DNA from: Clostridia bacterium
Lineage (GTDB): Bacteria; Bacillota; Clostridia; Oscillospirales; CAG-272
Length of the DNA stretch: 32,810 bases
NCBI GenBank assembly: GCA_017450945.1
Contig: JAFSSP010000011.1
Location: 1 to 32,810 of the forward strand
Reading direction: 5' to 3'
Within the stretch, counting starts at the first letter, position 1. Each line of letters begins with the position of its first letter. The position numbers were made by a program, and so were the translations under genes. Below are positions 833 through 17,259 of the stretch, piece after piece. The notes under the pieces are model-generated. The model was not told the origin of the DNA, made no database searches, and saw nothing but the letters and a program-made list of their open reading frames with translations.

Positions 833-1912
833 TTAAAGCGCATCTACAATGGCGTGTATTCTTGATTCTATCTTTACAGGAGTATCTAGTTCCACACCAA
901 TATCTACAGATAAATCTGATGTAATGGCCTCTTTTTCTATATGATCTTTTTGTATATTGATTATTTTTCCAATATAAACACGGTCCCCTGTCTTATATAT
1001 TAAATAATCGTTAATTTTTATATTCTTATAACTATTATTAAAACACACAATATAATTATTAAAAACATTTATCGGTTTCTTGGTTTGGAATTTTTGGTTT
1101 TCAATCTTGCTATAACCAAGACTTTCTCTTATACAGATTCTGCAAAGGCAATCGCAAAAGACTTCAACAAAGGGAATGAGTCTATTATCGATCTCTTCGA
1201 GAGAAAGGCGATCTGAATTATTCCAACTATGAGCAACCGTGTTTCGTTGTTTAATCAATATTTCAATAGGTAAAAAAAGATCAGAAATATTATTTGTTCG
1301 TTTTAATTGAAATTCATGTTCATCCATAAATGATGGTATATAGTATCCTTTAAATATAGGCTCGTCCAGAATCTTGCTTTTTCCATCACATATTCCGAGA
1401 CTATTCATTATTTCGCATATTTCATCAACATGAATATTACCCGAATGAGCAAGTGCAAAAACTTTATTTATACAAGACAAGGTGTTCAGATTTAAAACTT
1501 GATTGTATTTTTCAATTTCTTTTTCAAATTCAAAATCGTATCCTTTATATCTCTGCGGCGATGATAAATAATCACCTATTTTTTCACGGTACTTTTTTTG
1601 CAAGCTTTGCGGAAGCTCTGAATGCTTTTTGTGATTTTCTAATACAATTTCAAGAAACACTCCCAAAATACTCGAAATATAGTTTTCAAAGCACCCATAC
1701 AAACTAATAATAATAGCATTGTTTACAATTTGAGAGTTTTTTGTCTCTTTTAAAGTTGACAAATAAAAGCTCTCTTCACCGTCAAACACTTTAGATTTAA
1801 TATTGCTTAAAAGGCGGCTTGAAATTGCACTCATACTCATTGTTTTCAAAAAGCTTTTAATTTCAAGTAAGTGATCCTGAAAAATTTTATATTCAATCAA
1901 CAGTCTTTTCAT
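833..1912 (-). CDS. HEPN-domain RNase-like protein (MAE_28990-like)
   Basis: A 359-residue, Lys/Asn/Ile-rich protein without membrane segments. The diagnostic feature is R223-NTVA-H228, the R-x4-H catalytic motif of HEPN ribonucleases, at the start of a helix after a mostly helical N-terminal part that includes CFENYISSI (about 74-82). The last 80 residues look like a small beta domain. HEPN proteins of this kind are known toxins or effectors in defence and toxin-antitoxin systems. Its start codon overlaps the stop of the upstream DUF262 gene by 4 bp (ATGA), so the two are translationally coupled and probably act together. Family assignment (MAE_28990 or RiboL-PSP-HEPN) is from memory. The target RNA is unknown. 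Base composition is far more AT-rich than the chromosomal genes to the right. Confidence 0.75.
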   Translation of the reverse strand: MKRLLIEYKIFQDHLLEIKSFLKTMSMSAISSRLLSNIKSKVFDGEESFYLSTLKETKNSQIVNNAIIISLYGCFENYISSILGVFLEIVLENHKKHSELPQSLQKKYREKIGDYLSSPQRYKGYDFEFEKEIEKYNQVLNLNTLSCINKVFALAHSGNIHVDEICEIMNSLGICDGKSKILDEPIFKGYYIPSFMDEHEFQLKRTNNISDLFLPIEILIKQRNTVAHSWNNSDRLSLEEIDNRLIPFVEVFCDCLCRICIRESLGYSKIENQKFQTKKPINVFNNYIVCFNNSYKNIKINDYLIYKTGDRVYIGKIINIQKDHIEKEAITSDLSVDIGVELDTPVKIESRIHAIVDAL

Positions 1913-3144
1913 AGTATTTCATTTTTGATAAATTCATAAAGTTTTTCCGTGCGCTTTATTATATCCGTTTTTGCTTGGTGCTTACCATCAAACAGCCTTT
2001 CATCTGCAATATTACCATCTTCTTGTTTATTACATTTTGTATAGAACGCTTTTAATTTATTAATATTGACATCACTGTTTGTAGAATCAAAGCAAATATC
2101 TTCGTTCGTTAGCGCCAACATCATCGGGTCATAAATCATACGAGACGGAGAAGACCATTTTTCAGTTTCCGAATTGTAGATTTTAAAAGCAAATAAACCA
2201 AATAAATCATTTGCTTTTTTTAGTGTTTTGGCAAACAAATTAGATAGATCATTCAATTGCTTCCCATTATATCGATTTAGAGCATACAAAGTATCGTCCA
2301 ACATACTTGATAGCGCATAATCAAAATCATTGATGTTTCTCATAGCAAAAAAACGCAAAACAAGTTCAACATCGTACATTCTCTTAAACAGCGCATTGCG
2401 ATCTAATTTGCGTCTTAAAGAATCATCATCGATTTGATCCTGTAAATCATAGTCTTCTTCATCTATTTCGGTTGATTTTGGAATTTCCCATAACGATTTG
2501 AACAAGACATTGTTAGATAATTTAATACACATGTCGTTTCCCGGACCATTATAAACCGCATTTCTTATTTCTTGGGGTAACAGTTTAACCCCACCAGTGT
2601 TTAAACGCTCAAAAACAAGCCGTCTGATTTTATCAGCCCTCTCAGCAGTTGTTGCAGATTCTTTTAGCAGGGTAACCACTTGAATCTGTCTACGGTCTAT
2701 CCCTTCTTTGACTTTTTCTGGGAGATCTTTATACTTTTTTCCGTCTAATTCTTCCCATTCTTCTAATCCGGACAAACGATACTTATTGTCATAAAAATCG
2801 ATAATGGCCGTTAACCGTTGTAATCCATCCATGACTTCATATTTGTCGTAATCATATTCATAAAGGAAAATAGGAGGGATAGGAATATTCACAATTAGAG
2901 ACTCTATTAACTTTGATCTTTTATTTGCATTCCACGTGATTCTCCGTTGGTAATCAGGTTGCAAATTGTAATTGCCTTGTTTGAAAATTTCTTTTATTAT
3001 GGAGACTTTGTAAGAACCGGTCTCTGTAACTACTCTTGAATATCCTTGTTCATATTTTGCATTGATATCAAATTGGGATTTATTCATTTCTTGGCTAATC
3101 CTTTTAATTGTATTTACTTCAAAATCGTATTTCTTAATATTCAT
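1909..3144 (-). CDS. DUF262 (GmrS/ParB-like nuclease fold) protein
   Basis: A 411-residue protein with the DUF262 signature: P63-DYQRRITW (about 63-71), D106-GLQR, and FERLNTGGVKLLPQEIR (about 178-194). DUF262 has a ParB/sulfiredoxin-like fold that binds and hydrolyses nucleotides. It is found in the modification-dependent restriction enzyme GmrSD and in several phage-defence systems. No DUF1524 HNH domain follows, so cleavage may be left to the HEPN partner encoded immediately downstream with a 4-bp overlap. The start is supported by GGAAG about 8 nt upstream. AT-rich, like the rest of the island. Function as a two-gene defence module is an inference. Confidence 0.8.
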   Translation of the reverse strand: MNIKKYDFEVNTIKRISQEMNKSQFDINAKYEQGYSRVVTETGSYKVSIIKEIFKQGNYNLQPDYQRRITWNANKRSKLIESLIVNIPIPPIFLYEYDYDKYEVMDGLQRLTAIIDFYDNKYRLSGLEEWEELDGKKYKDLPEKVKEGIDRRQIQVVTLLKESATTAERADKIRRLVFERLNTGGVKLLPQEIRNAVYNGPGNDMCIKLSNNVLFKSLWEIPKSTEIDEEDYDLQDQIDDDSLRRKLDRNALFKRMYDVELVLRFFAMRNINDFDYALSSMLDDTLYALNRYNGKQLNDLSNLFAKTLKKANDLFGLFAFKIYNSETEKWSSPSRMIYDPMMLALTNEDICFDSTNSDVNINKLKAFYTKCNKQEDGNIADERLFDGKHQAKTDIIKRTEKLYEFIKNEIL

Positions 3145-3199
3145 TATGCATCTTCCTTTCGGTTTTATGTGTTTGTTGCTTTCTACATTTTATTATGGG

Positions 3200-3227
3200 C
3201 ATATATCTTTATTTGCATCAGTTTCAA
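3200..3227 (-). promoter_or_regulatory. possible promoter of the DUF262-HEPN pair
   Basis: On the minus strand TTGAAA (3222-3227) and TATATG (3200-3205) are 16 bp apart, about 55 bp before the DUF262 start. Neither box is perfect and the region is AT-rich, so chance is possible. Confidence 0.35.
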
Positions 3228-3307
3228 TGTGTTCAGATGAACATGCCCCTTTTCTTGATTAAAACAATCAGATATTCTCATTTTTCTCTCCGTTACTTAT
3301 CATAAAA

Positions 3308-5446
3308 TCAAATAGTTTCAATTCCTATTGATCGCAAATATTCATACGTCCCATCGTAAAACTTCGGCAATCTTGTACTATCTTCCCAGAAACCGCTCGA
3401 AGTTTTGTTTGCATTTCCCTCGGGAACACAAATCACCATTCCGGCGCGAGCGCGGGTAAGCAGGACGCGATAAGCGTTGAGCATATACTTCATTTGTTCC
3501 TGCTGACTATCAGTATTGCCCAAAATTTCGTTCCATTTGGTATTTCCATTAAACCGATAATAACGCCATTCGCCGTTTTCATAACGCATATCGGCATCCC
3601 ATAAGACGCAAGTATAATCAAGTTCCAGTCCCTGAACCTGAATTTCCGTAGCGGCATCTTCCAAATAGTTAGACGATCTCGTATCAATTTTATCTTCAAG
3701 AAACCAATGGACAGCGTTTTCGTCGCCGGATGGCAAAATGTGTACCGCCAACGGTTTGTAGCGTGCAGACTCTTTTGTGACCAAAACGCCCGTTCGCTCT
3801 GTGCCCCTCACCTTGCTGTGAAGCCACTTGCGCGCTTTTTCCATATCTCTCGTTAACACAATGGGGTATTTATCCTTGATCTCGGCATACAACGTTTTGG
3901 CATTATCGTCAAAAGACAAAAGCGCATGTATGAAAGCCGACAACTTTTCAGCACGATATGAGCGCAGAGAAACACCCAAGTGCAAATCCTCTGAATAGGT
4001 AACGTTTTTGTTATCCTTCAAAAGATCGTTAATCTTGCCTTCGGCATATTCCGTTTCGGTCAGCTTCGGAGAAATGTAAACCTTCCAGTGCGTGAATTTC
4101 TCATTGATTGCTCGAATCCACTCAGAGATACCGGCTTCGCCGGTGTTGATTTCTTGCCCACCGCCGACAAGGCAGATAATCGTAGCCCAGTCTTCGCGCT
4201 GGTCAAGCGACCAGATCAGAAATGCCGCTTCGGAAACCGGGAAGTTTGGCACTTTTAGTTTGTTGCCGTAGGTTCCGCCTCGTTTGAGGTAATCGGCAAG
4301 GCGCTTATGTGTCCACGAACGTTGTGCTTCATCAAAAATTGCAACGTGTTCAACCTCGCCGAAACCGGCTTGCTCCATTTTTACAGCTTTTGTTGGATCA
4401 ATCTCAAGAATGCCATTTTCTACGGGATTTTTGATTTTTGCAAGCATATTGTCACGGTAACGGTGAATCATCTGGATCGATTTGCTCACCTCACGGCGAG
4501 AATCGGTCATTTTCTTTTTCTCACCTTCTTCTCGGCAACGCTTATAGTTATCCTGTGCAAGGGCTTCGGTCAATACTGCGACAAGCGGACCGTTGCCGGA
4601 TAGATAAACGGCTCCCTCGTCTTTTACCGGTTCGTTTTGTCCTTGATAGGTTTGCCGAATTGCAACGTCAAGGCCGACAAGTGTTTTACCGGCACCGGGA
4701 ACGCCTGTGACAAAACAGACACTCTTTTGTTGCTTTTCCTTGCTTTGCTTGATTACATCCAAAATATAAGCGATTGTTCGGTCGGTTGAAACTTTGTCTG
4801 CCTCGTGCCGCGTAATATTTTCGACAGAATGATTCTCATATAGTGATCTCGCGGCTTCAATAATGGTTGGGGTCGGTGCATATGGGCTGATTACCCAATT
4901 CAGATCAACCGGCGATTCATTTGGAAATCTGTTCAAAACAGCAGTGACCAAACTAAAGATACCGGACTCTCCTGTGACTAACGGATTGGTGACCCGGTCG
5001 TCATAGACAGACATCTTGATATCGGACGATGCCCACTTGTAGTTTGTAGCAATAAGGATTGGAACAATCACTTTGTTTTGGCTGAATCTATGGAAGTTCT
5101 TCAAATCCAACGCATAGTCAAGAACTTGATCGACGTCAGCTTCTAATATGTGAGACTCTCCAACCTTAAATTCGAGGCAAAATACGATCCCTTTGTAGAG
5201 CAGAACTACGTCAATCCGTTTGCCCAGACGGGGAATATCATATTCGAAGATGATACGGCCATTCTTGTCAGAAAATCTCGACAAAGTGTCTTTCATTGCC
5301 GAGATTTCGCCTTTCCACGCCTCTCTAGTTGTGGTTTTGGCATCGCCATGATAACGGTCGCATAACTTCCCCAGAATGGATACCTCGGCCTCACTCAAAA
5401 AATCTATTAAATTATTGTCATATAAGCACCGGGGACTATTGCTCAT
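3308..5446 (-). CDS. PD-(D/E)XK nuclease fused to DUF2075 (Schlafen-type) helicase
   Basis: 712 residues from an ATG with GGAG 9 nt upstream. The reading frame extends 24 codons further up, but that would overlap hipT. The N-terminal part has a restriction-nuclease-like core, with D79 in RIDVVLLYKG followed by E92-F-K94 (the D...ExK pattern). The helicase part has Walker A GVPGAGKT (about 248-255), Walker B DEAQ (about 372-375) and a motif VI-like NAYRVLLTRARAGM near the C-terminus, as in the DUF2075/SLFN group-3 helicase family. Such nuclease-helicase fusions are common in defence islands, so nucleic-acid cleavage during phage infection is a fair inference. The gene starts 43 bp after hipT and is probably transcribed with hipBST. 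Confidence 0.8.
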   Translation of the reverse strand: MSNSPRCLYDNNLIDFLSEAEVSILGKLCDRYHGDAKTTTREAWKGEISAMKDTLSRFSDKNGRIIFEYDIPRLGKRIDVVLLYKGIVFCLEFKVGESHILEADVDQVLDYALDLKNFHRFSQNKVIVPILIATNYKWASSDIKMSVYDDRVTNPLVTGESGIFSLVTAVLNRFPNESPVDLNWVISPYAPTPTIIEAARSLYENHSVENITRHEADKVSTDRTIAYILDVIKQSKEKQQKSVCFVTGVPGAGKTLVGLDVAIRQTYQGQNEPVKDEGAVYLSGNGPLVAVLTEALAQDNYKRCREEGEKKKMTDSRREVSKSIQMIHRYRDNMLAKIKNPVENGILEIDPTKAVKMEQAGFGEVEHVAIFDEAQRSWTHKRLADYLKRGGTYGNKLKVPNFPVSEAAFLIWSLDQREDWATIICLVGGGQEINTGEAGISEWIRAINEKFTHWKVYISPKLTETEYAEGKINDLLKDNKNVTYSEDLHLGVSLRSYRAEKLSAFIHALLSFDDNAKTLYAEIKDKYPIVLTRDMEKARKWLHSKVRGTERTGVLVTKESARYKPLAVHILPSGDENAVHWFLEDKIDTRSSNYLEDAATEIQVQGLELDYTCVLWDADMRYENGEWRYYRFNGNTKWNEILGNTDSQQEQMKYMLNAYRVLLTRARAGMVICVPEGNANKTSSGFWEDSTRLPKFYDGTYEYLRSIGIETI

Positions 5447-5489
5447 TATACTAAACTCCTTCGAAAAAAATCTTTTGCAATAACGCTTA

Positions 5490-6437
5490 CTAATCCAAGA
5501 TCCTGCACCGCATCTCAATCAGCTCCGAAAGCCGTTCTTTTAAGTTCTGCGACAACAGTGACTCTTCGCACATCTTTTGGTAGATTGGCTTGAGCGACAC
5601 AATTTTTGCAATCATTTTCTCTGCTGACGCTTTTGGAATCTCGCATTCTTCTGCAAAGACGAAAAAGTCTTTTTTGCGAATGTTGGCTTTCTTTCCATTC
5701 ATAGCAAGGGCAAATTCCTCGGTGTCCTCCGGCATAATGACATTGACCGGTAGCAGATCATATGCCGGCGATAGCACATAAATGCCGCTTGCCGCATGCG
5801 TTTCGATGAGCGAGAAGTTTTTGAGATGCATATCCGAATTGCCGACGACAAAGGAGAAAACAAGCCGCAAAAACAGTTCGGTCATATCCAACTTTGCCTG
5901 TGCGGAATACCGTGCGATTACTTTTGCACAACGCTCATATGAACCCTTATATTTATCCTGCGTCAAGCGTAGATCGAGCTGACAAAAATCTTCCATAGCA
6001 AGCATTTGAAGACTATTTCTATCAATGACTCGATCGACTCGTTTGGTTATATAGGCGAATTTGTTGTCGCTTTTGATGAGCGCGTGTGGCACCGTCGAGA
6101 TGCCAGTCGCGTCCGCCATAGTCATGACCAGTTGTTCGGCTTCCGGCAGACATTCAAATTCGGACACCTGCGGTTTCAGAATATATCCGGTTGGATAATT
6201 GACAAGCGTTAAGCGAGGTGTGTTACCATCCGAGTGCAAATGGAGCGACAACTTTTTTTGAACGCCGGGCACAGTGATTCCTTTGTTGGTGTTTTCTTTT
6301 GCGATCTCCTCTAATGTATGATCGTCAATTTCGATTTGCGGAATGGTGCTTGTCCCAAAAAAATGTTTGACGCAGGCTTGATGCCATCCGTTTATATCAT
6401 TTTTTCTTAAAGGTTTGCCACAGCAATAACAGTTCAT
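5490..6437 (-). CDS. hipT: HipT-type serine/threonine kinase toxin (HipA core without N-subdomain 1)
   Basis: A 315-residue HipA-family kinase. It opens with a small Cys-rich segment (CYCC near 3-6, then H and C near 19-22), often seen in short HipA proteins. Next come the glycine loop PGVQKKLS (57-64), the nucleotide-binding YILKP, the catalytic GNSDMHLKN and the metal-binding PAYDLLP. The domain that forms the N-terminus of full-length HipA is absent and is encoded by the gene just upstream, so the arrangement matches the three-gene HipBST systems first described in enteropathogenic E. coli. Known members phosphorylate aminoacyl-tRNA synthetases (HipA GltX, HipT TrpS); the target here is unknown. 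The start overlaps the hipS stop by 4 bp. Confidence 0.85.
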   Translation of the reverse strand: MNCYCCGKPLRKNDINGWHQACVKHFFGTSTIPQIEIDDHTLEEIAKENTNKGITVPGVQKKLSLHLHSDGNTPRLTLVNYPTGYILKPQVSEFECLPEAEQLVMTMADATGISTVPHALIKSDNKFAYITKRVDRVIDRNSLQMLAMEDFCQLDLRLTQDKYKGSYERCAKVIARYSAQAKLDMTELFLRLVFSFVVGNSDMHLKNFSLIETHAASGIYVLSPAYDLLPVNVIMPEDTEEFALAMNGKKANIRKKDFFVFAEECEIPKASAEKMIAKIVSLKPIYQKMCEESLLSQNLKERLSELIEMRCRILD

Positions 6438-6766
6438 TTCCTTTCCTCCGCTATGCTCACGTTTCCAATACCGTCTTTACAAGCAACGAGCAAAAGTCCA
6501 AAGCGATCCTTCGTGTCGATTTTCCAGTTCCGACTCACAACGTTGAGAAGCCATCCTTCCGGAATCAGACCGTCAAAGAATGGAAACAGCGTTCCGGATG
6601 TGTAAGGTGTGCTTGCAAGCGGAAGCGTCAAGGATACAGCGGACGCAGTTTCGGATTTTAGATACTCCTCATCATAGGCAAACAGATAGCCTGAATCGGT
6701 TTCAGAAAGAATACCGGCAAAAACATTCCGCACATACACGTATGCCTTTCTAAATGCGTCCATCAT
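6434..6766 (-). CDS. hipS: HipS-like antitoxin (HipA N-subdomain 1)
   Basis: A 110-residue protein equal to the N-terminal couple_hipA subdomain, with the family pattern LTLPLAS...GTLFPFFDGLIPEGWLL. In HipBST systems this separate subunit, not HipB, neutralises the kinase; I infer the same here. Two ATGs stand in tandem (6766 and 6763). The first overlaps the hipB stop in ATGA, and the stop overlaps the hipT start by 4 bp, so the three genes are translationally coupled. Confidence 0.85.
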   Translation of the reverse strand: MMDAFRKAYVYVRNVFAGILSETDSGYLFAYDEEYLKSETASAVSLTLPLASTPYTSGTLFPFFDGLIPEGWLLNVVSRNWKIDTKDRFGLLLVACKDGIGNVSIAEERK

Positions 6767-10275: not shown

Positions 10276-11418
10276 TTATATTCCCAAACGCCGGTAAAAA
10301 TCCGCTTTCTCTTTCCCCTCGTCGGCTTCTTTTCTCAGCTTTTCGCCGCGAAAGAGAGAGGCGATCCCCTTCCCCGCATAGCGGAAAAGTTGGTAAATCC
10401 AGGCAAAGGGACGCAAAATTTTGTGCTTTTGAAAGGCCTTGCAGTTGGCCACGCCCGCTTTTTGCAGGGTCCTAAAGAAGCCATTTTGCTTGATCCCGAT
10501 CGAAAGCTCACGCATCGGCTTGTATTCGTAAGGGTCTTTTCTACCAAAGTTGCCGCCCGCAAGAAGCGTTTCAAGGAGTTCCTTTGCAGTCGCGTCGTCG
10601 GCGTCGTCGCACCACGCGCAAGGAGTTGGCAGGCCGAAATCGGTTTTGCACATTTTTGTGACGACTCGCGCCAGTCTTCCAAGCCCGCAGGATTCAAAGA
10701 GCGGCAGATAGGATGCCGCAAACTCGCCCTCCTCCGGAATCGAGTGGACAAAGAGCATAAAGTCGATGATCTGCCGGATCCCAAGCCCACCGTAAAGGTG
10801 GTGCCGGATGTGATCAAGCAGAACAAGACCGTTTACGGCTTTCGGAAGCATCGGGAAGGCGTTCCCGTAGAGCGTCGCCGTCTCGGCTTTTTCAATGCCA
10901 TTTTGCAGGATCTCTTCAATATCGTTTCTTTCGTCGCTGTACCGCTTGTGAAGCTCAAAGACCACACCGCCCGAAAGAAAACTGTAGTCGCGGCCGTCGC
11001 CGTAATCGGTATTATACTTGTAGCCGTTCTCTTTTAAGAGCGCAAAGGCGCGGTCAAAAGAACCTTTGCCGACGAGAATGTCCACGTCTCCCATTGTGCG
11101 TGCCGAGGGGGTGGGATAATAGATCGCCGCGGCGCATCCTTTGAGAATGACAAAGGGGATACCCTCTTTTTCAAAGAGGCTAACCAGTTTGGTCTGTTCA
11201 TAGAGTGCGCGCATAAAGTGCGCTTTGGCCTGAGACGCATCCGAAAGCCACGCGGCGGCCTGTTCCTTGGGAAGCGCAGAAAAAACGAGCGGCACGACGG
11301 TTTGCGCTTTGGCTTCGGCAAGCAGTGCCGCCCAGTCAAGGTCTTCCGGAAGTTCTGACGGTGCGCCGAAAAGTGCGGTTTTCAGGAGCGCAAGAAGCGC
11401 CGATTCGGTGTTATTCAT
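10276..11418 (-). CDS. nucleotidyltransferase (NTP_transf_5-like) of the candidate RiPP locus
   Basis: 380 residues from the ATG at 11418. A longer frame exists upstream but lies inside the kinase gene. FVILKGCAAA (about 89-98) and RTMGDVDILV (G110, D111, D113) form the nucleotidyltransferase signature GDxD of the NTP_transf_5 family. The remainder is helical with a basic C-terminus. Related proteins occur in lasso-peptide and other RiPP clusters beside HPr-kinase-like enzymes, where they are thought to tailor the peptide or its phosphate group. The start overlaps the kinase stop by 8 bp, so the two are coupled. Role in this locus is inferred from context. Confidence 0.8.
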   Translation of the reverse strand: MNNTESALLALLKTALFGAPSELPEDLDWAALLAEAKAQTVVPLVFSALPKEQAAAWLSDASQAKAHFMRALYEQTKLVSLFEKEGIPFVILKGCAAAIYYPTPSARTMGDVDILVGKGSFDRAFALLKENGYKYNTDYGDGRDYSFLSGGVVFELHKRYSDERNDIEEILQNGIEKAETATLYGNAFPMLPKAVNGLVLLDHIRHHLYGGLGIRQIIDFMLFVHSIPEEGEFAASYLPLFESCGLGRLARVVTKMCKTDFGLPTPCAWCDDADDATAKELLETLLAGGNFGRKDPYEYKPMRELSIGIKQNGFFRTLQKAGVANCKAFQKHKILRPFAWIYQLFRYAGKGIASLFRGEKLRKEADEGKEKADFYRRLGI

Positions 11419-12145
11419 CGGCAACCATCCCTTCCTTTGCCACGCATGCGGCGTTGGGATCGAGGTTGCAGGCAAGCGCGTAAAACGGAACCGTCTCACC
11501 GAGTTTTCCAACAAACTGTAACGTCGTCTCAAGCGCGCTCCGCTCCTCTGGGCGATAGGTTTGCGCAATGATCAAATGGAACACCTTTGCAAAATCGATT
11601 TTTTCGATTTTGTTCTCCTTGCCGCGAAAGAGCACGCAGATCGCCGCGAGCGGCAGGATTGCATTTTTGTTTCTTCCCTCTTTGCCGGCCCAAGGAGTGC
11701 CGCAGGCAAAAACTTTTCCGTCCATAAATCGAAGGATCGGTTTGTCGCCGTTGAGAATAAAGGCGTTCGGATATTTTTTCAGCCAAAAGCTCGTGTGCGT
11801 CGTCTTTCCAACGCCCGAGGGAGCCGTGAACAGATAGGCCTTGCCGTTAAGCCCCACCACGGCGCCGTGCATGAGAAAGGCGTTGTAATCGAGCATCTTC
11901 ACAACGATTTTTCGATAGACCGCGAGCGTTTCAAGATAGCCGTCGGAAAAATACTCCGGGATCCTGCCCTCGTGTTTTGCTTCGCTTGCAGATTTTTCGC
12001 GTTCAAACTCAATGTCAGAGGCGTCGATCGTCACCGAGAAGTCGGGCTCACCGCTCACAAGATAGTCGCGGCAGAGCGTATAGACTTCCTCGTAAAGGCT
12101 CGTAACGCCGATCTTCACACCCGCAAGCGAAATGGTAAACTTCAT
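11411..12145 (-). CDS. HPr-kinase-like serine kinase of the candidate RiPP locus
   Basis: 244 residues, starting at ATG with GGAG six nt upstream; a TTG four codons earlier is less likely. The P-loop APSGVGKTT (about 108-116) follows LMHGAVVGLNGKAYLF, and NGDKP plus GTPWAGKEG complete the HPr kinase/PEPCK-like core. The N-terminal HprK regulatory domain is absent, so it is not the carbon-catabolite HprK. Small kinases of this type phosphorylate a serine of the precursor in lasso-peptide clusters (paeninodin type). No HPr gene is nearby. The gene lies 18 bp after the peptidase and overlaps the nucleotidyltransferase. A likely substrate is the 108-residue product encoded at 13518-13844. Confidence 0.82.
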   Translation of the reverse strand: MKFTISLAGVKIGVTSLYEEVYTLCRDYLVSGEPDFSVTIDASDIEFEREKSASEAKHEGRIPEYFSDGYLETLAVYRKIVVKMLDYNAFLMHGAVVGLNGKAYLFTAPSGVGKTTHTSFWLKKYPNAFILNGDKPILRFMDGKVFACGTPWAGKEGRNKNAILPLAAICVLFRGKENKIEKIDFAKVFHLIIAQTYRPEERSALETTLQFVGKLGETVPFYALACNLDPNAACVAKEGMVADE

Positions 12146-12163
12146 AAAAAACTCCAAAAAGAA

Positions 12164-12640
12164 TTATTTGCCGGTCAATTTGTATTTGACCGCTCTTAGA
12201 AACTGTCTGGTTCCGCGTACCGCTTTTAAGACAAAAAACCGAGCGTGATAGGGCGCGCACCGAAGGTGGAGATAGCACCAATGCCGAAAGCCTTTGAAGG
12301 CATACGGTTTTCCGTCGCGCACAAGGCTTGTCAGAATTCCGAGGATGCACTCAGAGGGCACGATCTCGCCCGACGTGTCGTGATCACCGGCGATAAAATA
12401 AGTTCCGTCGCGGCGGACTTTTAAGATCCGATGTACCACATAATGGCCCCTGCCCTGCACATGCGGGCGCACAAAGAGAACCACGTCGAGTTTTTTCGGC
12501 GGCTCTTTGCAGGCCTCGATCATCATGACGTCCTTTCCTTCGCGGATGAGCGGCATCATGCTGACTCCCACGTTGGTGTAGATCAGGCGACCGTGCTCGG
12601 CCAGCTCACGCTCAAACGATGAAAATTTTTCGTTCGTCAT
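12164..12640 (-). CDS. S24/S26-family peptidase, Ser-His type, soluble
   Basis: 158 residues. GVSMMPLI places the catalytic serine at S27. GHYVVHRILKV puts H70 where bacterial signal peptidase I has lysine, as in the archaeal/ER (Sec11) and SipW type. FIAGDHD (D86, D88) could supply the acid. No N-terminal membrane anchor is visible, so it probably acts in the cytosol, unlike a secretory signal peptidase. It overlaps the PqqD gene by 29 bp and precedes the kinase by 18 bp. A job in removing the leader of the candidate precursor fits, since the exporter has no C39 protease domain. The basic C-terminal tail might contact membrane or nucleic acid. Confidence 0.8.
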   Translation of the reverse strand: MTNEKFSSFERELAEHGRLIYTNVGVSMMPLIREGKDVMMIEACKEPPKKLDVVLFVRPHVQGRGHYVVHRILKVRRDGTYFIAGDHDTSGEIVPSECILGILTSLVRDGKPYAFKGFRHWCYLHLRCAPYHARFFVLKAVRGTRQFLRAVKYKLTGK

Positions 12641-12914
12641 CGGTGATATTCTCCAGCAGTCCTTCTTGATTCAGCCGTCTTAAAAACAGGACGAGACTTT
12701 TGGCGATCTCCTCGTCGGTCGATTCCTCATACTTCTCCTTCAGATACAAATGAATCTTCATCGGAGTGGTGTCCTCTTTCATTTGTCCGAGGATGTCGGC
12801 AGAGACGGCGTTGAGCTTGAGCATGCCGTGAAATTTGTTTGCGTCCTCCCCGACCGGCACCGCGGCAAACTCGCCGCCCATATCCATAATGGCAAATTCG
12901 TAACGCAACTTCAT
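12612..12914 (-). CDS. PqqD-family peptide-recognition protein
   Basis: 100 residues from an ATG with GAGGTGA six nt upstream. The pattern LNAVSADILGQMKED, then IHLYLKEKYE and LVLFLRRLNQEGLL, is the PqqD winged-helix fold (RiPP recognition element), which binds leader peptides and presents them to modifying enzymes. It is the first gene of a tightly packed run PqqD-peptidase-kinase-nucleotidyltransferase with its own promoter. This is the strongest single sign that the locus handles a ribosomal peptide. Confidence 0.85.
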   Translation of the reverse strand: MKLRYEFAIMDMGGEFAAVPVGEDANKFHGMLKLNAVSADILGQMKEDTTPMKIHLYLKEKYEESTDEEIAKSLVLFLRRLNQEGLLENITDDERKIFIV

Positions 12915-12945
12915 AGCGGTCACCTCGCATAGTTTTCTATTTTCT

Positions 12946-12974
12946 ATCATACCACATCGCGCGCCGGATTGCAA
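12946..12974 (-). promoter_or_regulatory. promoter of the PqqD operon
   Basis: On the minus strand TTGCAA (12969-12974) and TATGAT (12946-12951) with a 17-bp spacer, 31 bp before the PqqD start. Confidence 0.7.
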
Positions 12975-13017
12975 GGAAAAGAAGGGAAAAAGATTCTTTT
13001 TCATGAGTTACTTCCCC

Positions 13018-13073
13018 ACTGACCCCTCATCCGTCACGGCAAGCCGTGCCACCTTCCCCTCAAGGGGGAAGGC
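13018..13073. repeat. REP-like intergenic palindrome
   Basis: Two nested hairpins: CACGGC/GCCGTG and CCTTCCCC/GGGGAAGG. The motif CCCCTCATCCGTCA with CACCTTCCCCTCAAGGGG resembles a repeat I recall from many gut Clostridia genomes. No coding capacity. Confidence 0.6.
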
Positions 13074-13129
13074 TAATGGGATTTGCAACTCACAGTGCAG
13101 AGCCGCCCTCCCGAAGGCGTAGTTCCTTA

Positions 13130-13404
13130 GGCGCCAGAGATTCGAACCCGACCGCCTCTCGGCGGACAGTTTCGGTGCTTTTGCGCCTTATCAGTCTTGT
13201 CCTACCTCCAGTAGGACTGCGACCTCTGCGGCTGAAATCCCTCAAAACTGTCTCGCCGATAGGTGCGTAGCAGTTTTTACAGAGCGGTTTTTCGTCGAGG
13301 CGCGAAAAAGCCCGCAGGCAATACGCCCGTATTGGCAAGGGCTTTGACAATGCATGGGCGGAAAACCGCCTGCAAAAACCGATTGGGTTCGCATCTCTGG
13401 TGCC
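13130..13404. repeat. structured direct repeat flanking the precursor gene, copy 1
   Basis: About 275 bp, shared with 13950-14184 at high identity apart from an extra block of about 40 bp near 13303-13343. The ends are inverted: GGCGCCAGAGATTCGAACCC on the left against GGGTTCGCATCTCTGGTGCC on the right, both resembling a tRNA T arm plus acceptor strand. Inside are hairpins CCGCC/GGCGG, GTCCTAC/GTAGGAC and GGCGGTTTTCCGCC. No credible reading frame. Confidence 0.8.
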
Positions 13405-13462
13405 TACGCCAAGGAAGTAGGCGAGGAGCAACGAAGCATGGCGAAGAATTCTGCGATGAAAG

Positions 13463-13496
13463 CAAAAATAAAAGCCGGCAAGTTGCCCTGCCGGCT
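13463..13496 (-). terminator. terminator of the precursor gene
   Basis: Minus-strand stem AGCCGGCA/TGCCGGCT (13473-13480 with 13489-13496) followed by TTTATTTTTG, 21 bp after the stop codon. Confidence 0.88.
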
Positions 13497-13517
13497 TCTA
13501 TTTGTTTTGAGCTTACG

Positions 13518-13844
13518 TCAGTTGTTGCCGTAGAGTTCCCAGTAGCTTGCGCCCTTGGTGTAGTACGCGCCGGAACCGTTCGGATCGACATACGCGTCGA
13601 AAGTATCGGCGTAAGGATTATACGTCCGATCATTTTCAATCGTTTCCGCACTGACCTCATACTTGTCGTAGGAATGGTACCCAACGATCCAAGTTCCTTC
13701 TTCCTCATAGGAAGGTGCCATGGTACCATAGACACCATAGTAACCGGTACCAGAATTGGAATCTGCCACGTAGAACAGGCTGGTTGCAAGCACGTCTTCT
13801 GCTGCGAAGCGCACAACTTCAAGCTCAGCGTTTGTGATTTTCAT
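13518..13844 (-). CDS. candidate RiPP precursor, Tyr-rich and Cys-free, 108 aa
   Basis: A perfect AGGAGGTGA site 6 nt upstream, a consensus promoter and its own terminator point to high expression as a single gene. The N-terminus MKITNAELEVVRFAAEDVLA resembles a leader. V18-L19-A20 before T21 fits the small-residue rule of signal-peptidase-type cleavage. The remaining 88 residues hold 14 of the 15 tyrosines, many Gly, Ser, Thr, Asp and Glu, two Trp and no cysteine, with repeated aromatic-small patterns such as GTGYYGVYG and GSGAYYTKGASYW. It has no hydrophobic segment. I know no named family. Identification as precursor rests on its place between exporter and PqqD genes, its size and its leader-like start. 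A small structural protein is the main alternative. Confidence 0.65.
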   Translation of the reverse strand: MKITNAELEVVRFAAEDVLATSLFYVADSNSGTGYYGVYGTMAPSYEEEGTWIVGYHSYDKYEVSAETIENDRTYNPYADTFDAYVDPNGSGAYYTKGASYWELYGNN

Positions 13845-13850
13845 TGGAAA

Positions 13851-13859
13851 TCACCTCCT
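13851..13859 (-). promoter_or_regulatory. perfect Shine-Dalgarno site of the precursor gene
   Basis: AGGAGGTGA on the minus strand, a nine-base complement of the 16S rRNA 3' end, six bases before the ATG. It is the strongest ribosome site noted in the window. Confidence 0.85.
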
Positions 13860-13882
13860 AAACCAAAAAATTGGACAGTATG

Positions 13883-13911
13883 ATTATACAAGAAGTTTTG
13901 CAATTTGTCAA
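13883..13911 (-). promoter_or_regulatory. consensus promoter of the precursor gene
   Basis: Perfect TTGACA (13906-13911) and TATAAT (13883-13888) with a 17-bp spacer on the minus strand. The only other protein gene here with the same full match is proS. Confidence 0.9.
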
Positions 13912-13949
13912 GCGTTTTGGAAAACTTTATAAAAACTTTTTTCGTCTTA

Positions 13950-14184
13950 GGCATCAGAGATTCGAATTCAACCGCCTCTCGGCGGACAGTTTCGGTGCTT
14001 TTGCGCCTTAGCGATCTTGTCCTACCTCCAGTAGGACTGCGACCTCTGCGGCTGAAATCCCTCAAAACTGTCTTAGCGATAGGTGCGTAGCAGTTTTTAC
14101 AGAGCGGTTTTTCGTCGAGGCTTTGACAATGCATGGGCGGAAAACCGCCTGCAAAAACCGATTGGATTCGGATTTCTGGTGCCT
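13950..14184. repeat. structured direct repeat flanking the precursor gene, copy 2
   Basis: Same orientation as 13130-13404. Left end GGCATCAGAGATTCGAAT, right end GGATTCGGATTTCTGGTGCC. The right end runs into the stop codon of the acyltransferase gene (14183-14185), so insertion there may have set its C-terminus. Long-range arms such as ACAGTTT with AAACTGT are conserved in both copies. Confidence 0.8.
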
Positions 14185-15307
14185 AAAACCGCTGTTCTCT
14201 TGTGGAGATTTTGTAGCGGATCCAACCGATGAGCACCGCAAGGCCAAAGCTGATTGCAAAGCAGATCAGGCTTTGATACGGAGAAATAAACGTCGTCCAA
14301 ATCTCCAGGCGGTCGAGCAGAACGAAAAGGAACCAAAGGAAGAAGGCGCAGGGCTGGCAAAAGGCGTACATTCTGCGCGCGTAGCTTCTGCCGTGGTTAC
14401 CGAAAAAGCTATCCTCCCAAAGAGTGGGCCCTGTGACAGCAAAACAGACGATCGAAATTGCCATGACGGCATAACCGATCATGTTGCCGGTGTAAACGAG
14501 ATAGCCGGATTTGCTGAGAAAATACAATTCACCGGCCGAGAGAAGGATCCCAAAAAAGAAGGTGACAAGATAGACGCCCCACGGAATTTTGGCAAGTTTG
14601 TCTACCCCGCGACGCAAAAACATGCCGATGAGCATAAAGGGGATCGCTTTGGTAACGGCTCCGCCCGGAATATAGGAATATCCGAGAAGCGAGAACTTGG
14701 TAAGGCCTGCAAACTCACCGCTGTAGAGCATAAAAGCAAGCGTCAGGATCAAAATTGCCAGATAGAACCAGGTCTTTGACAGCTTGATCTTTTCGACGAC
14801 AAAGAAGAAGAGATAAGCGTAAAGAAGGCTCTGGATAAACCAAATGCCGCCTCCGACCGACAGAGGCCAGACGTTGAGCACAAGAAAGTTAAAAGGCGTG
14901 CGCAGTCTCAAGAGCTCGGGAGAGAGCAGTTGATCCATCCTGCCGGTATAGTAGAAGTAAAACAGATTGATTGCAAGATAGCAAACAAAAAGAATGACAA
15001 AGGTGAAAAAGGATCTTCCAAGCGCGCGTGTGATCTTGCGCATGCGCCGTTCCCGGTCGGGAACCAGCACAAAAAATCCGCAAAGCGTGAAAAAGGCAAG
15101 CCCGGCAAACCCCGAGATCGCATTCACATAGTTGCTGATAATGGTGGAGATCGTCAGCCCGCGCCCCTCTAAAAAGCTCAGGACCGGGAAGCCGAGCAGG
15201 CCGAAAAAGACAAACGGCATGAGCAAAAACTTGACCAGATTGACAAGAGGGGATATATTGCCCTCATCGTAAAAAGTAGAGAGCTTTTGCTGACTCGATT
15301 CGTTCAT
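14183..15307 (-). CDS. membrane acyltransferase (acyltransferase_3-like)
   Basis: 374 residues from the ATG that overlaps the ABC gene stop by 4 bp. A second ATG 12 bp upstream lacks a spaced ribosome site. About ten hydrophobic helices, with GGGIWFIQSLLYAYLF (about 160-175) like the WFl-x-LL-x-YL element of acyltransferase family 3. The usual N-terminal histidine motif is not obvious, so it may be a divergent or permease-like member. Coupling to the exporter and proximity to the precursor suggest a role in the same peptide pathway, for example acylation or immunity; this is inference. The stop lies at the edge of repeat copy 2. Confidence 0.65.
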   Translation of the reverse strand: MNESSQQKLSTFYDEGNISPLVNLVKFLLMPFVFFGLLGFPVLSFLEGRGLTISTIISNYVNAISGFAGLAFFTLCGFFVLVPDRERRMRKITRALGRSFFTFVILFVCYLAINLFYFYYTGRMDQLLSPELLRLRTPFNFLVLNVWPLSVGGGIWFIQSLLYAYLFFFVVEKIKLSKTWFYLAILILTLAFMLYSGEFAGLTKFSLLGYSYIPGGAVTKAIPFMLIGMFLRRGVDKLAKIPWGVYLVTFFFGILLSAGELYFLSKSGYLVYTGNMIGYAVMAISIVCFAVTGPTLWEDSFFGNHGRSYARRMYAFCQPCAFFLWFLFVLLDRLEIWTTFISPYQSLICFAISFGLAVLIGWIRYKISTREQRF

Positions 15308-17259
15308 TCGTTCCACCATCCTTCGTTTTGATGTTCGGGAAGCACGCCTGTGTCAGAGCCTTGCGCCATCGCCTCTGGCGGCGGCATCGGGCGCGCGGGT
15401 TTTCTTTGCCCTTCGGTCGGCAGATCCGCATAGCGGAAGATGAGCTCGGCCACCTTTTTGCGATCGACTTCTTCGAGTCCGCCCTCGGTAATGCGATAGA
15501 TGCGGTCGCAGAGTTTGAGTGCGCTCGGGCGGTGCGTCGAGACGATGATGACCTTGTTGGGATGCGCCTTGATGATGTTGCGGAGCACCTTTTCCTCGGT
15601 CTCCACGTCAAGCGCGCTGGTCGCCTCATCGAGAAGCAGGATCGGCGCGTCTCTCAGAATTGCGCGGGCGATCGAAAGGCGTTGTGCCTGTCCTTCCGAA
15701 ACGCCTCTTCCCCGCTCTCCGAGTCTGCCGTTGATGCCGTCCGGAAGTTCGGAAACAAATTCATAGGCGCAGGCAGTCGTAAGGGCTTCGACGATCTCTT
15801 CGTCGGTCGCGTCCTCTTTTACCATGCGCATATTCTCGGCGATCGTACCCGAGAGAATGGTGTTCCCCTGCGGAACGTAGGAAAAAAACTTGCGCAAATC
15901 GGCGTTGACCGGGACCTCTTTGCCTTCTTTATCGGCAAGAATGACCTGCCCTTCGTCGGCGTCAAGCATACCGAGAAGCAGGCGCATGAGCGTGGTCTTT
16001 CCGCCGCCGCTGCTGGCAACGACCGCAACGATCTCGCCGGGTTGTGCCGTAAAATCGGCATGCTGATAAACCCTGCGGCCCTCTCTTTCGCCATAACCAA
16101 AGGTCACGTTCCGGAGCTTGACCGAAAAACCCTCTTTTTCAAACTGTTTCAGTTCCTCGTAGGCGCACTCGTCGTGCGCTTCTCTCGGCAGTTCGATGAG
16201 TTCTCTGACACGGTGCGCCGAGACTGCCGAATTGAGCATACCCGGAACCGTACCGATGAGGTTGTTGAAGCGGTTGGAAAGGTTGGAGCGCTGCTGCAAG
16301 AAGAAGGTCATGTCGCCGTAAAGGATCTGGCCCGTCCAGAGCCGCCAGAGGCAGTAGCCGAACGCGGCGAGCGAGACAAGCGTGGAAACGAGCGTCATAA
16401 GGATCTTCGATTTGATCTCAAACTTGTTGTAATCGAGGTTGAACTGTTTGAAGAGCTTTTGCCACTCGCGCAAACGTCTGGAATAGTGCCCGAAGATGCC
16501 AAAGGATTTGATCATGTCGAAATTGTAGAAGGTTTCGACTTCAAAGCCCATCATATCCGAATTGAGTTCGAGCACGCGCTTGCGGTATTCGCGCATCTTT
16601 CGCAGGATGTACCGGCTCATCAAAAGCAGGAAGGGCGCCGATAAAAAGGCGATCCATGCCATGGTGGGGTCGGTCTTGAAAAGCGCAAAAAAGACGAGCA
16701 AAAAGGTATAGAGATTGATGATCAGGTTCGGGATCCAGTTGATCGCGTTGGACGCGATGGTGCTCACGTCGCCGTTGAAGCGGTTGAGCAGATCTCCGCT
16801 CGGGTATTTGGAAAGTTCCTTCCAGCGTGCGTCGATGATGCGGTCAAAGATCGCGCCCTGAATATCGTTGTTGACATAGATCGAAACGCGGGTAAAGATC
16901 CGGCTGTTGATACTCGAAAAAACGAGCGAAAAGATGGTCATACCGACCATCGATCCGATGAGCAGCCAGAGCTTGTCCACTTCTTTGCCGACAATGATAT
17001 TGATGAGCATTTTGCTCAGCCATGCGGCGCCGAGTGAAAGGGTCGAACTGAAAATGCCGATGACGGTATAGAGAAAAATGATCCCCTTGTACTTTTTGGA
17101 AAAGCTGAAGATCCATTTCCAGTCGCCGATGAACTCTTTGAATGTTCCATCGTATCTTTTATTGATGAATGTTTGCAGAGTCTCGCTCCGAAAGATGCGA
17201 TTGACCCCGGTGTACTTCCCTTTTTGTTTGCGACTCTTTTTTTCGCGTTTTTCTTTCAT
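15304..17259 (-). CDS. ABC exporter, fused permease and ATPase
   Basis: 651 residues from the ATG at 17259. After a Lys/Arg-rich start, a type-IV exporter membrane domain with about six helices (about 55-325) is followed by a nucleotide-binding domain: Walker A ASSGGGKTT (415-423), Q loop VPQGN, signature VSEGQ (520-524), Walker B ILLLDEATSALD (540-551) and STHR. There is no C39 leader-peptidase domain. One such protein would work as a homodimer moving substrate outwards. It heads the locus and overlaps the acyltransferase gene. Export of the product of 13518-13844 is the obvious guess, but lipid or drug export cannot be excluded. Confidence 0.88.
   Translation of the reverse strand: MKEKREKKSRKQKGKYTGVNRIFRSETLQTFINKRYDGTFKEFIGDWKWIFSFSKKYKGIIFLYTVIGIFSSTLSLGAAWLSKMLINIIVGKEVDKLWLLIGSMVGMTIFSLVFSSINSRIFTRVSIYVNNDIQGAIFDRIIDARWKELSKYPSGDLLNRFNGDVSTIASNAINWIPNLIINLYTFLLVFFALFKTDPTMAWIAFLSAPFLLLMSRYILRKMREYRKRVLELNSDMMGFEVETFYNFDMIKSFGIFGHYSRRLREWQKLFKQFNLDYNKFEIKSKILMTLVSTLVSLAAFGYCLWRLWTGQILYGDMTFFLQQRSNLSNRFNNLIGTVPGMLNSAVSAHRVRELIELPREAHDECAYEELKQFEKEGFSVKLRNVTFGYGEREGRRVYQHADFTAQPGEIVAVVASSGGGKTTLMRLLLGMLDADEGQVILADKEGKEVPVNADLRKFFSYVPQGNTILSGTIAENMRMVKEDATDEEIVEALTTACAYEFVSELPDGINGRLGERGRGVSEGQAQRLSIARAILRDAPILLLDEATSALDVETEEKVLRNIIKAHPNKVIIVSTHRPSALKLCDRIYRITEGGLEEVDRKKVAELIFRYADLPTEGQRKPARPMPPPEAMAQGSDTGVLPEHQNEGWWNE

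Follow-up and report, generated by a model that had tools for sequence, protein, structure and literature searches.

The stretch of DNA considered here (in the following, the window; 32,810 nucleotides, contig JAFSSP010000011.1 of assembly GCA_017450945.1) originates from a Clostridia bacterium of the GTDB lineage CAG-272 and corresponds to contig C2 of a 1.47 Mb genome that is 84 % complete. It carries, all on the minus strand, a tight run of genes in the order exporter, AT3-like (acyltransferase-3-like) protein, small gene, PqqD, S26, HprK-like, and NTP_transf_5, which probably belongs to a clostridial offshoot of the linear polyphosphorylated peptides (LPPs), a type of ribosomally synthesized and post-translationally modified peptides (RiPPs). 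An initial annotation of the window had described this run around the small gene just where we find it and had taken the latter for the precursor gene of a RiPP-type system, which is borne out by a family of such small proteins with a shared leader and variable cores. The accompanying statement that the system matches no familiar class has been overtaken by the description of LPPs, whose core gene set (PMC13381572) is that of the window. The individual features are as follows:

15304..17259, minus strand: MsbA/LppD-like ABC exporter (Pfam ABC_membrane, 1.5e-24; ABC_tran, 8.1e-24)
14183..15319, minus strand: AT3-like membrane protein with 10 hydrophobic segments (Pfam Acyl_transf_3, E = 3.2e-4)
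13946..14185, no strand assigned: repeat element, copy upstream of the precursor gene, 240 nt
13883..13911, minus strand: sigma-70-type promoter of the precursor gene (perfect TTGACA-17-TATAAT)
13518..13844, minus strand: precursor gene, 108 aa, with the leader at about residues 1-20 (MKITNAELEVVRFAAEDVLA), the invariant Ser22, and the core up to the C-terminal Asn
13466..13503, minus strand: strong intrinsic terminator 3' of the precursor gene
13126..13406, no strand assigned: repeat element, copy of 281 nt, including an insertion, downstream of the precursor gene
12612..12914, minus strand: PqqD, a discrete RiPP recognition element (RRE), LppB-like (Pfam, 8.6e-8)
12164..12640, minus strand: S26/SEC11-type (Ser-His) leader peptidase, LppS-like, probably soluble (profile alignment, hydropathy)
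11411..12145, minus strand: HprK/PEPCK-type kinase, LppK-like (P-loop, weak family matches)
10276..11421, minus strand: NTP_transf_5 protein, LppN-like (Pfam, 5.8e-38)

Since the genes for S26 and PqqD, for HprK and NTP_transf_5, and for the exporter and the AT3-like protein overlap pairwise, the run is probably organized in two operons around the small gene. The latter stands isolated between its own perfect promoter and its terminator and is preceded by the ribosome site AGGAGGTGAT; judged from these three signals, it is presumably strongly expressed. Nothing in the precursor region scored above the gathering score in Rfam.

LPPs (lppA-K-B-S-D-N, Paenibacillus alginolyticus) were published in May 2026, and their gene set comprises an SpI-like peptidase, a discrete RRE, an HprK-like kinase, an NTP transferase, and an MsbA-like exporter (PMC13381572). 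Their precursors of 35-200 aa carry the leader YxxPxVLxHQxIxFETxxS, which is cleaved after Thr-1 in an RRE-dependent manner, and Ser3 of the core is polyphosphorylated, which is not the case for the variants S3T and S3Y (PMC13381572). Deleting lppN caused no visible change in the host; the role of LPPs, which are often linked to capsule loci, is given as unknown (PMC13381572). The words Clostridi, acyl, and acyltransferase have no match in the main text of that paper, and a second paper on the class was not among the matches listed in a full-text search for the class name.

To follow the precursor family further, GTDB genomes were scanned with an alignment of the exporter. Of the 37 loci obtained, 29 lie at 50-79 % identity (L097-L125); together with the window and L056, these 29 form a set of 31 loci, in which records that are duplicates judged by length and content are counted once (L097=L058, L099=L062, L112=L134, L113=L135, L118=L077, L120=L053). 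At thresholds of at least 20 bits for the leader, at least 700 bits for the exporter, and E <=1e-20 for the other proteins, the exporter is found at 30 of the 31 loci, the AT3-like gene at 25, S26 at 23, PqqD and HprK at 22 each, and NTP_transf_5 at 16, numbers that are partly matching by construction as the profiles were built from these same sequences. A short open reading frame (ORF) with the conserved N-terminus recurs at 20 loci; the pattern that would have contradicted the initial annotation, enzymes kept in relatives and never a short ORF, is not what is seen. Precursor and full enzyme set adjoin the exporter in several lineages as well as in the isolate Kandleria vitulina DSM 20405 (L114, NZ_JNKN01000009.1; exceptional in the C-terminal Tyr of its precursor). 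A precursor accompanies the AT3-like gene at 20 of 25 loci, and the remaining five are L056 (a fragment), L097 (two precursors elsewhere in its genome, G011), L102 and L115, where the AT3-like gene lies at a contig end, and L106. When the leader profile was run on 66 sequences (the fetched loci, some contigs being present twice), all matches above 20 bits were precursors at such loci or elsewhere in operon-bearing genomes (G011, G033), and the next best match (10.5 bits) fell in the related cluster L121.

Closer to the window, HprK was matched in 37 of 60 relatives, with 65-69 % identity solely in G017, G033, and G011 (besides the window itself) and 31-46 % in the others, where the match is mostly a paralogue belonging to a separate HprK-PqqD-S26 trio. 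The small protein was matched in the window's own genome (G000), G033, G017 (a 3' fragment), G028, and G011, while matches in G002, G039, G042, and G054 had E values of 0.03 or worse. Within the genus (35 genomes), the operon is recognized in five members, and these same five contain the small protein or a fragment of it; G028, whose operon is represented at a contig edge by its PqqD-S26 end, was spotted only via the small-protein match, and the search of the other genus genomes covered HprK and the small protein. A sample of 295 genomes of the family added one further genus (G120), with two tandem precursors adjoining the operon.

Three loci deserve a separate remark. L056 (3943-4179, in G017) carries its precursor as a 3' fragment amid intact operon genes, owing to either a deletion or an assembly gap. 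In G033, an orphan precursor (L055:5821-10338) lies beside a partly duplicated gene (an ORF of 659 aa plus a 191-aa copy sharing its N-terminus). At L121 (6890-11815), the exporter belongs to the same family and is accompanied by PqqD, a radical SAM protein, and what appears to be a fusion of S26 and HprK; the 90-aa precursor has six Cys and a leader ending in EDIVVAS.

Across 26 precursors (the window included, L121 left out), the leader follows the consensus F...DV[IL]ATS, and Ser occupies position 22 in all 26. Mean pairwise identity amounts to 0.58 in the leader (0.23 after shuffling) and to 0.30 in the core (0.25 after shuffling); the cores, 64-119 aa long, are barely alignable and rich in Gly, Tyr, and Ser (12.6 % Gly, 10.5 % Tyr, 0.1 % Cys). 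No convincing family was obtained for the 23 precursors scanned against Pfam and NCBIfam, which gave single weak Pfam matches (0.014-0.093), and a profile search of the PDB with the leader alignment returned no match. The second conserved spot is the very C-terminus, with Gln in 22 precursors, Asn in two (among them the window), and Glu and Tyr in one each; counted by clusters at 60 % identity, Gln ends 16 of 20 precursor clusters as compared to 3.8 % of 290 other ORFs of these loci. Two explanations of this residue were considered. A loss of the C-terminal Gln along with the kinase, suggested by the L112 precursor that ends in Glu at a locus lacking HprK, was rejected because the L112 genome carries HprK on another contig. 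A lasso-like action of the kinase or NTP_transf_5 protein on the C-terminal residue was likewise examined, and as Gln is kept at L111, L117, and L122, where NTP_transf_5 was not found, there is no direct tie of the enzyme to the C-terminus, and the idea is carried on solely in the speculative two-ended reading given below.

Long, Gly/Tyr/Ser-rich, and nearly Cys-free cores would also suit an ordinary secreted structural protein or a folded bacteriocin that leaves the cell unmodified, with PqqD and S26 acting as a secretion leader system. We consider this improbable, as an HprK-like kinase with a conserved P-loop is present at 22 of the 31 loci and the published homologue phosphorylates its core (PMC13381572). 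Less probable still is a known cyclized or crosslinked RiPP (lasso peptide, lanthipeptide, sactipeptide) whose main enzyme is encoded elsewhere in the genome: precursors do occur away from the operon in G011 and G033, so that parts of the system can be separate, and radical SAM genes are present in the sister clusters L121, L138, L141, L149, and L223-L226, but the cores contain next to no Cys. The absence of the named RiPP enzymes, claimed at the outset, holds as far as tested: a Pfam scan of the window ORFs (17 further ORFs, E <=1e-5) gave no lasso cyclase, B2 protease, radical SAM, LanM, YcaO, or C39 protein, the rest of the genome not having been searched. Hence, neither the Asn-synthetase-like cyclase and transglutaminase-like B2 protease of lasso peptides nor the radical SAM enzyme and Cys-bearing core of sactipeptides and ranthipeptides is seen within the window; neighbors at the other loci were compared only against our own reference set.

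Beyond the gene set, a link to LPPs comes from the way in which the leader and the PqqD protein vary together. Structurally, LppB contacts its leader through Asp70, which bonds the Tyr, and through Asn33, which holds the Pro kink (PMC13381572). An alignment with a single LppB chain shows that all 22 operon-type PqqDs have Asn at the place of Asn33, as do 9 of 9 from the second trio and 9 of 12 from other clusters (mostly radical SAM), whereas Asp at the place of Asp70 is seen in none of the 22, in 8 of the 9, and in 11 of the 12. This loss of Asp70 in the operon-type PqqDs matches the leaders, in which the Tyr position is held by Ile (11), Met (11), or Leu (3) in the 26 operon-type members (one being too short), with the Pro kept in 16 of 26. 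Conversely, a group of dispersed mini-precursors (described below) has Tyr in 19 of 20 cases and Phe in one. Arranged in 33 leader-PqqD rows (three loci counted twice), Tyr goes with Asp in 10 of 10 and non-Tyr with non-Asp in 23 of 23, including two that are not operon-type, namely L138 (Trp with Gly) and L152 (Phe with Ser). Moreover, the best PqqD near a non-operon HprK match has Asp in 30 of 30 genomes (and Asn at the Asn33 equivalent in 29 of 30), and the 19 mini-precursors of those genomes contribute 16 new Tyr-Asp pairs, two that were already counted, and one exception (L194), giving in total Tyr with Asp in 26 of 26 and non-Tyr with non-Asp in 23 of 24 pairs. Left out of this comparison were L069, L142, and L222, which have no recognizable leader by PqqD, and the mini-precursor L207, from a genome without an HprK match. 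The covariation suggests that the leader is tied to PqqD through a recognition code in which an aliphatic residue stands in for Tyr and the RRE loses the Asp.

The mini-precursors are dispersed ORFs whose 37-55 aa combine a Y..P leader with a D[IV].TAS-like end, present in the window's own genome (L191, G000:C12:75546-75641) and in others of the genus (L192-L210). At E <=0.05 there are 89 matches in 25 of the 35 genus genomes, a single genome holding as many as 13; six of the 89 are operon-type precursors. Three of the 20 mini-ORFs examined lie at a contig start, and 12 of the other 17 sit 12-24 nt behind another ORF, which in 11 of these 12 cases encodes at least 461 aa and in several has, by eye, a signal-peptide-like start. 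A Ser is found in the place equivalent to Ser22 in 20 of 20 mini-precursors and a C-terminal Gln in 0 of 20. They are likely processed by the separate HprK-PqqD-S26 trio (L052:8113-9562 in the window's own genome) and possibly constitute the more surprising of the two systems. A related arrangement, which emerged when 391 genomes of the class were searched with the leader profile (10 matched), is L152 (G882), where a 40-aa precursor with Phe in the leader lies behind a large protein gene and directly before an HprK-PqqD-S26 trio whose PqqD has Ser at the Asp70 place.

Regarding the processing enzymes, a broad PqqD profile matches lasso B1 proteins and LppB (PDB 9x8z, 2.2e-5), and a narrow one gave chance matches only in the PDB. 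The S26 protein of the window has no Pfam match and reaches the NCBIfam archaeal signal peptidase at 9.3e-6, under the cut-off; the S26 profile aligns the S-M..H-R..G-D-N residues with human SEC11A/C (E ~0.01), and hydropathy indicates no transmembrane or hydrophobic segment. The HprK-like protein of the window likewise matches no Pfam family, with HprK_rel_A (0.061) and ScmC (0.072) as its only hits, and a PDB profile search with the HprK alignment found nothing; among its homologues, the P-loop S-G-x-G-K is kept and weak matches to ScmC (11 of 17) and HprK_rel_A (7 of 17) recur. The exporter is MsbA-like (best NCBIfam match, 8e-75, under that model's cut-off), and the Pfam scan of 15304-17259 revealed no peptidase domain in it.

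A component that sets the clostridial loci apart is the AT3-like membrane protein. Its gene is present, in line with the acyltransferase named by the initial annotation; the enzymatic label, by contrast, is doubtful. The window protein scores 20.3 bits with Acyl_transf_3, under the Pfam cut-off of 31. As in AT3 proteins such as OafB (PMC9833829), the AT3-like proteins have about 10 membrane segments, and Pfam Acyl_transf_3 matches 15 of 21 members weakly to clearly (best 1.1e-12), while a PDB profile search with their alignment gave no match. The difference lies in the R-X10-H motif, the His of which is termed absolutely conserved in AT3 proteins (PMC9833829): this helix-1 His is absent in 21 of 21 homologues, the basic residue being kept in 20 of 21 (by eye), and the sole K/R-X10-H match within the first 110 residues (L113) is a chance one before helix 1. 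Peptide acylation is therefore unproven.

At the same time, this protein follows the core more closely than any other component. Its gene lies directly before the precursor in 12 of 20 precursor loci (window, L100, L101, L103, L104, L105, L107, L108, L110, L113, L120, and L122), and in L103 it is duplicated together with the precursor. For 20 precursor-partner units (the three orphan precursors and L120 excluded, and the tandem pairs of L111 and L118 each represented by one member), core similarity correlates with partner identity at r = 0.64 for the AT3-like protein, followed by PqqD (0.45), ABC (0.44), HprK and NTP_transf_5 (0.42 each), the leader (0.34), and S26 (0.31). Under control for ABC, HprK, S26, or PqqD, the AT3-like r stays at 0.52-0.68 and that of the other components at -0.02 to 0.37; when the AT3-like protein is controlled for, all others fall to -0.13 to 0.05. 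Against a simple pairing speak the second L103 copy, whose nearest relative is the first copy at that locus and not the one that accompanies the nearest core, and the L101 and first L103 copies, which share 95 % identity while their cores share 54 %. This pattern suggests that the AT3-like protein is a core-specific partner. A cognate immunity, receptor, or export-gate protein for a bacteriocin-like or signaling core is a serious possibility, if somewhat short of probable; it would account for the close tracking of the core, the adjacency, the co-duplication in L103, and the lost catalytic His, whereas the two discordant cases just named and the frequent linkage of LPPs to capsule loci (PMC13381572) speak against it. 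Genuine acyltransferase activity towards the core during its export, with an acylated phosphopeptide as the product, appears rather doubtful: a tailoring enzyme would also track the core, and the family match and the retained basic residue agree with this role, but the His is missing throughout, L113 offering no substitute.

In sum, the gene set most likely serves to make the small protein, remove its front end, phosphorylate it, and export it. What the sequences show of this is the gene set, the precursor family, the covariation of leader with RRE and of AT3-like protein with core, the loss of the AT3 His, and the conserved C-terminus. Carrying over phosphorylation, RRE-dependent cleavage, and the order of steps from the Paenibacillus work, we infer that PqqD would bind the 108-aa precursor via Ile3, Leu8, and neighboring leader residues in place of the LPP YxxPxV, whereupon the HprK-like kinase would phosphorylate the invariant Ser22 just past the leader. 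The SEC11-type S26 peptidase, to which PqqD would present the substrate, may then cut beside Ser22, conjecturally after A20, where the small-residue -3/-1 rule would most likely place the site. Possibly, the leader is instead a plain signal-peptidase substrate cut after A-T-S (-3 Ala, -1 Ser), although the invariance of Ser22 fits the LPP phosphosite better. Where present, the NTP_transf_5 protein might join a nucleotide or a sugar to the phosphate; pseudomycoidin, for comparison, receives phosphate plus hexose from PsmK and PsmN (PMC9266682). Finally, the MsbA-like ABC protein would export the core, and the AT3-like protein might act on it or protect against it. More speculatively, and in our view unlikely as a whole, the product could be a two-ended phosphopeptide in which the C-terminal Gln/Asn is a second modification or recognition point in addition to Ser22 and the AT3-like protein, deprived of its acyl-transfer His, a core-specific immunity factor or receptor, which would make this a family for warfare or signaling with a hypervariable core and no link to capsules. 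One conceivable modification of the C-terminal residue is phosphorylation or nucleotidylation through a P-N link, for which L-glutamine kinase and microcin C offer chemical precedent (PMC6429109).

Several observations weigh against assigning the window to LPP-type systems. LPP leaders have Tyr and end in FET|xxS, whereas those of the window type are aliphatic and end in DVIATS, and the cut site and phosphosite can therefore be placed by analogy only. A leader ORF is missing at 11 of the 31 loci, some of which are cut contigs, with L056 retaining just a 3' fragment; L106 is a true exception, with PqqD, S26, HprK, exporter, and AT3-like protein and no precursor within 18.7 kb, and the exporter is the sole component seen at L116, L123, and L124. 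NTP_transf_5 is present at just 16 loci, and the L112 locus is without HprK, which occurs elsewhere in that genome. As to the covariation, L194 has a Phe leader in a genome whose PqqD has Asp, and since most rows come from related genomes, it is L138, L152, and L194 that carry independent weight (two for, one against).

The surroundings of the run hold further features. The precursor gene is flanked by direct repeat copies (13126-13406 and 13946-14185, 240-281 nt, 94-96 % identical), of which full or partial copies also occur on contigs C27, C11, C14, C31, and C6; as their ends resemble, by eye, a tRNA 3' end (GGTTCGAATCTCTGG), they may represent a small mobile element. A 56-nt REP-like repeat at ~13024-13080 has about 40 matches in the genome, some perhaps being two arms of one element. 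Adjoining genes at 833-6766 encode HEPN, GmrSD-like, Schlafen-group helicase, and HipA (C- and N-terminal domain) proteins, possibly a defense island.

If the assignment is correct, the LPP-type class reaches Clostridia of the rumen and gut as well as an isolate of the Erysipelotrichia, and this branch adds a leader/RRE code of aliphatic residues and Asp loss, a membrane protein evolving with the core, and a conserved C-terminal Gln. The cultured host Kandleria vitulina DSM 20405 makes product hunting practical, and should the AT3-like protein indeed be an immunity protein or receptor, the role of LPP-type peptides would become directly testable.

Compared with known systems, phosphorylated lasso peptides (paeninodin; pseudomycoidin with PsmK/PsmN; PMC8498205, PMC9266682) share the HprK-type kinase, the nucleotidyltransferase, and a discrete PqqD-type B1 protein. 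They differ by a macrolactam cyclase and B2 protease, which the window set lacks, and by a kinase target that is the C-terminal Ser, whereas the window family ends in Gln or Asn in 24 of 26 members. Clusters of PqqD, radical SAM, HprK, S26, and ABC proteins from the same order and phylum (L068, L121, L138, L141, L149, L223-L226) have the RRE, kinase, peptidase, and mostly the exporter in common with the window but combine short Cys-bearing precursors with a radical SAM enzyme. The likeness to LPPs extends over the SEC11/SipW-type leader peptidase, the discrete LppB-related RRE with its Asn33 equivalent kept, the HprK-like kinase, the NTP transferase, the MsbA-like exporter, the lack of a cyclase, and the precursor type, with a conserved N-terminus, a variable C-terminus, and a Ser right after the leader. 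The leader motif YxxPxVLxHQxIxFETxxS, in contrast, is not found, DVIATS standing in place of FETxxS, and the window is therefore described as a related branch rather than a strict member of the LPPs, which is set apart by Ile/Met/Leu for the leader Tyr with loss of RRE Asp70, by the additional AT3-like membrane protein, by the C-terminal Gln (22 of 26), by orphan precursors in two genomes, and by hosts that, according to the record titles, live in the rumen and gut.

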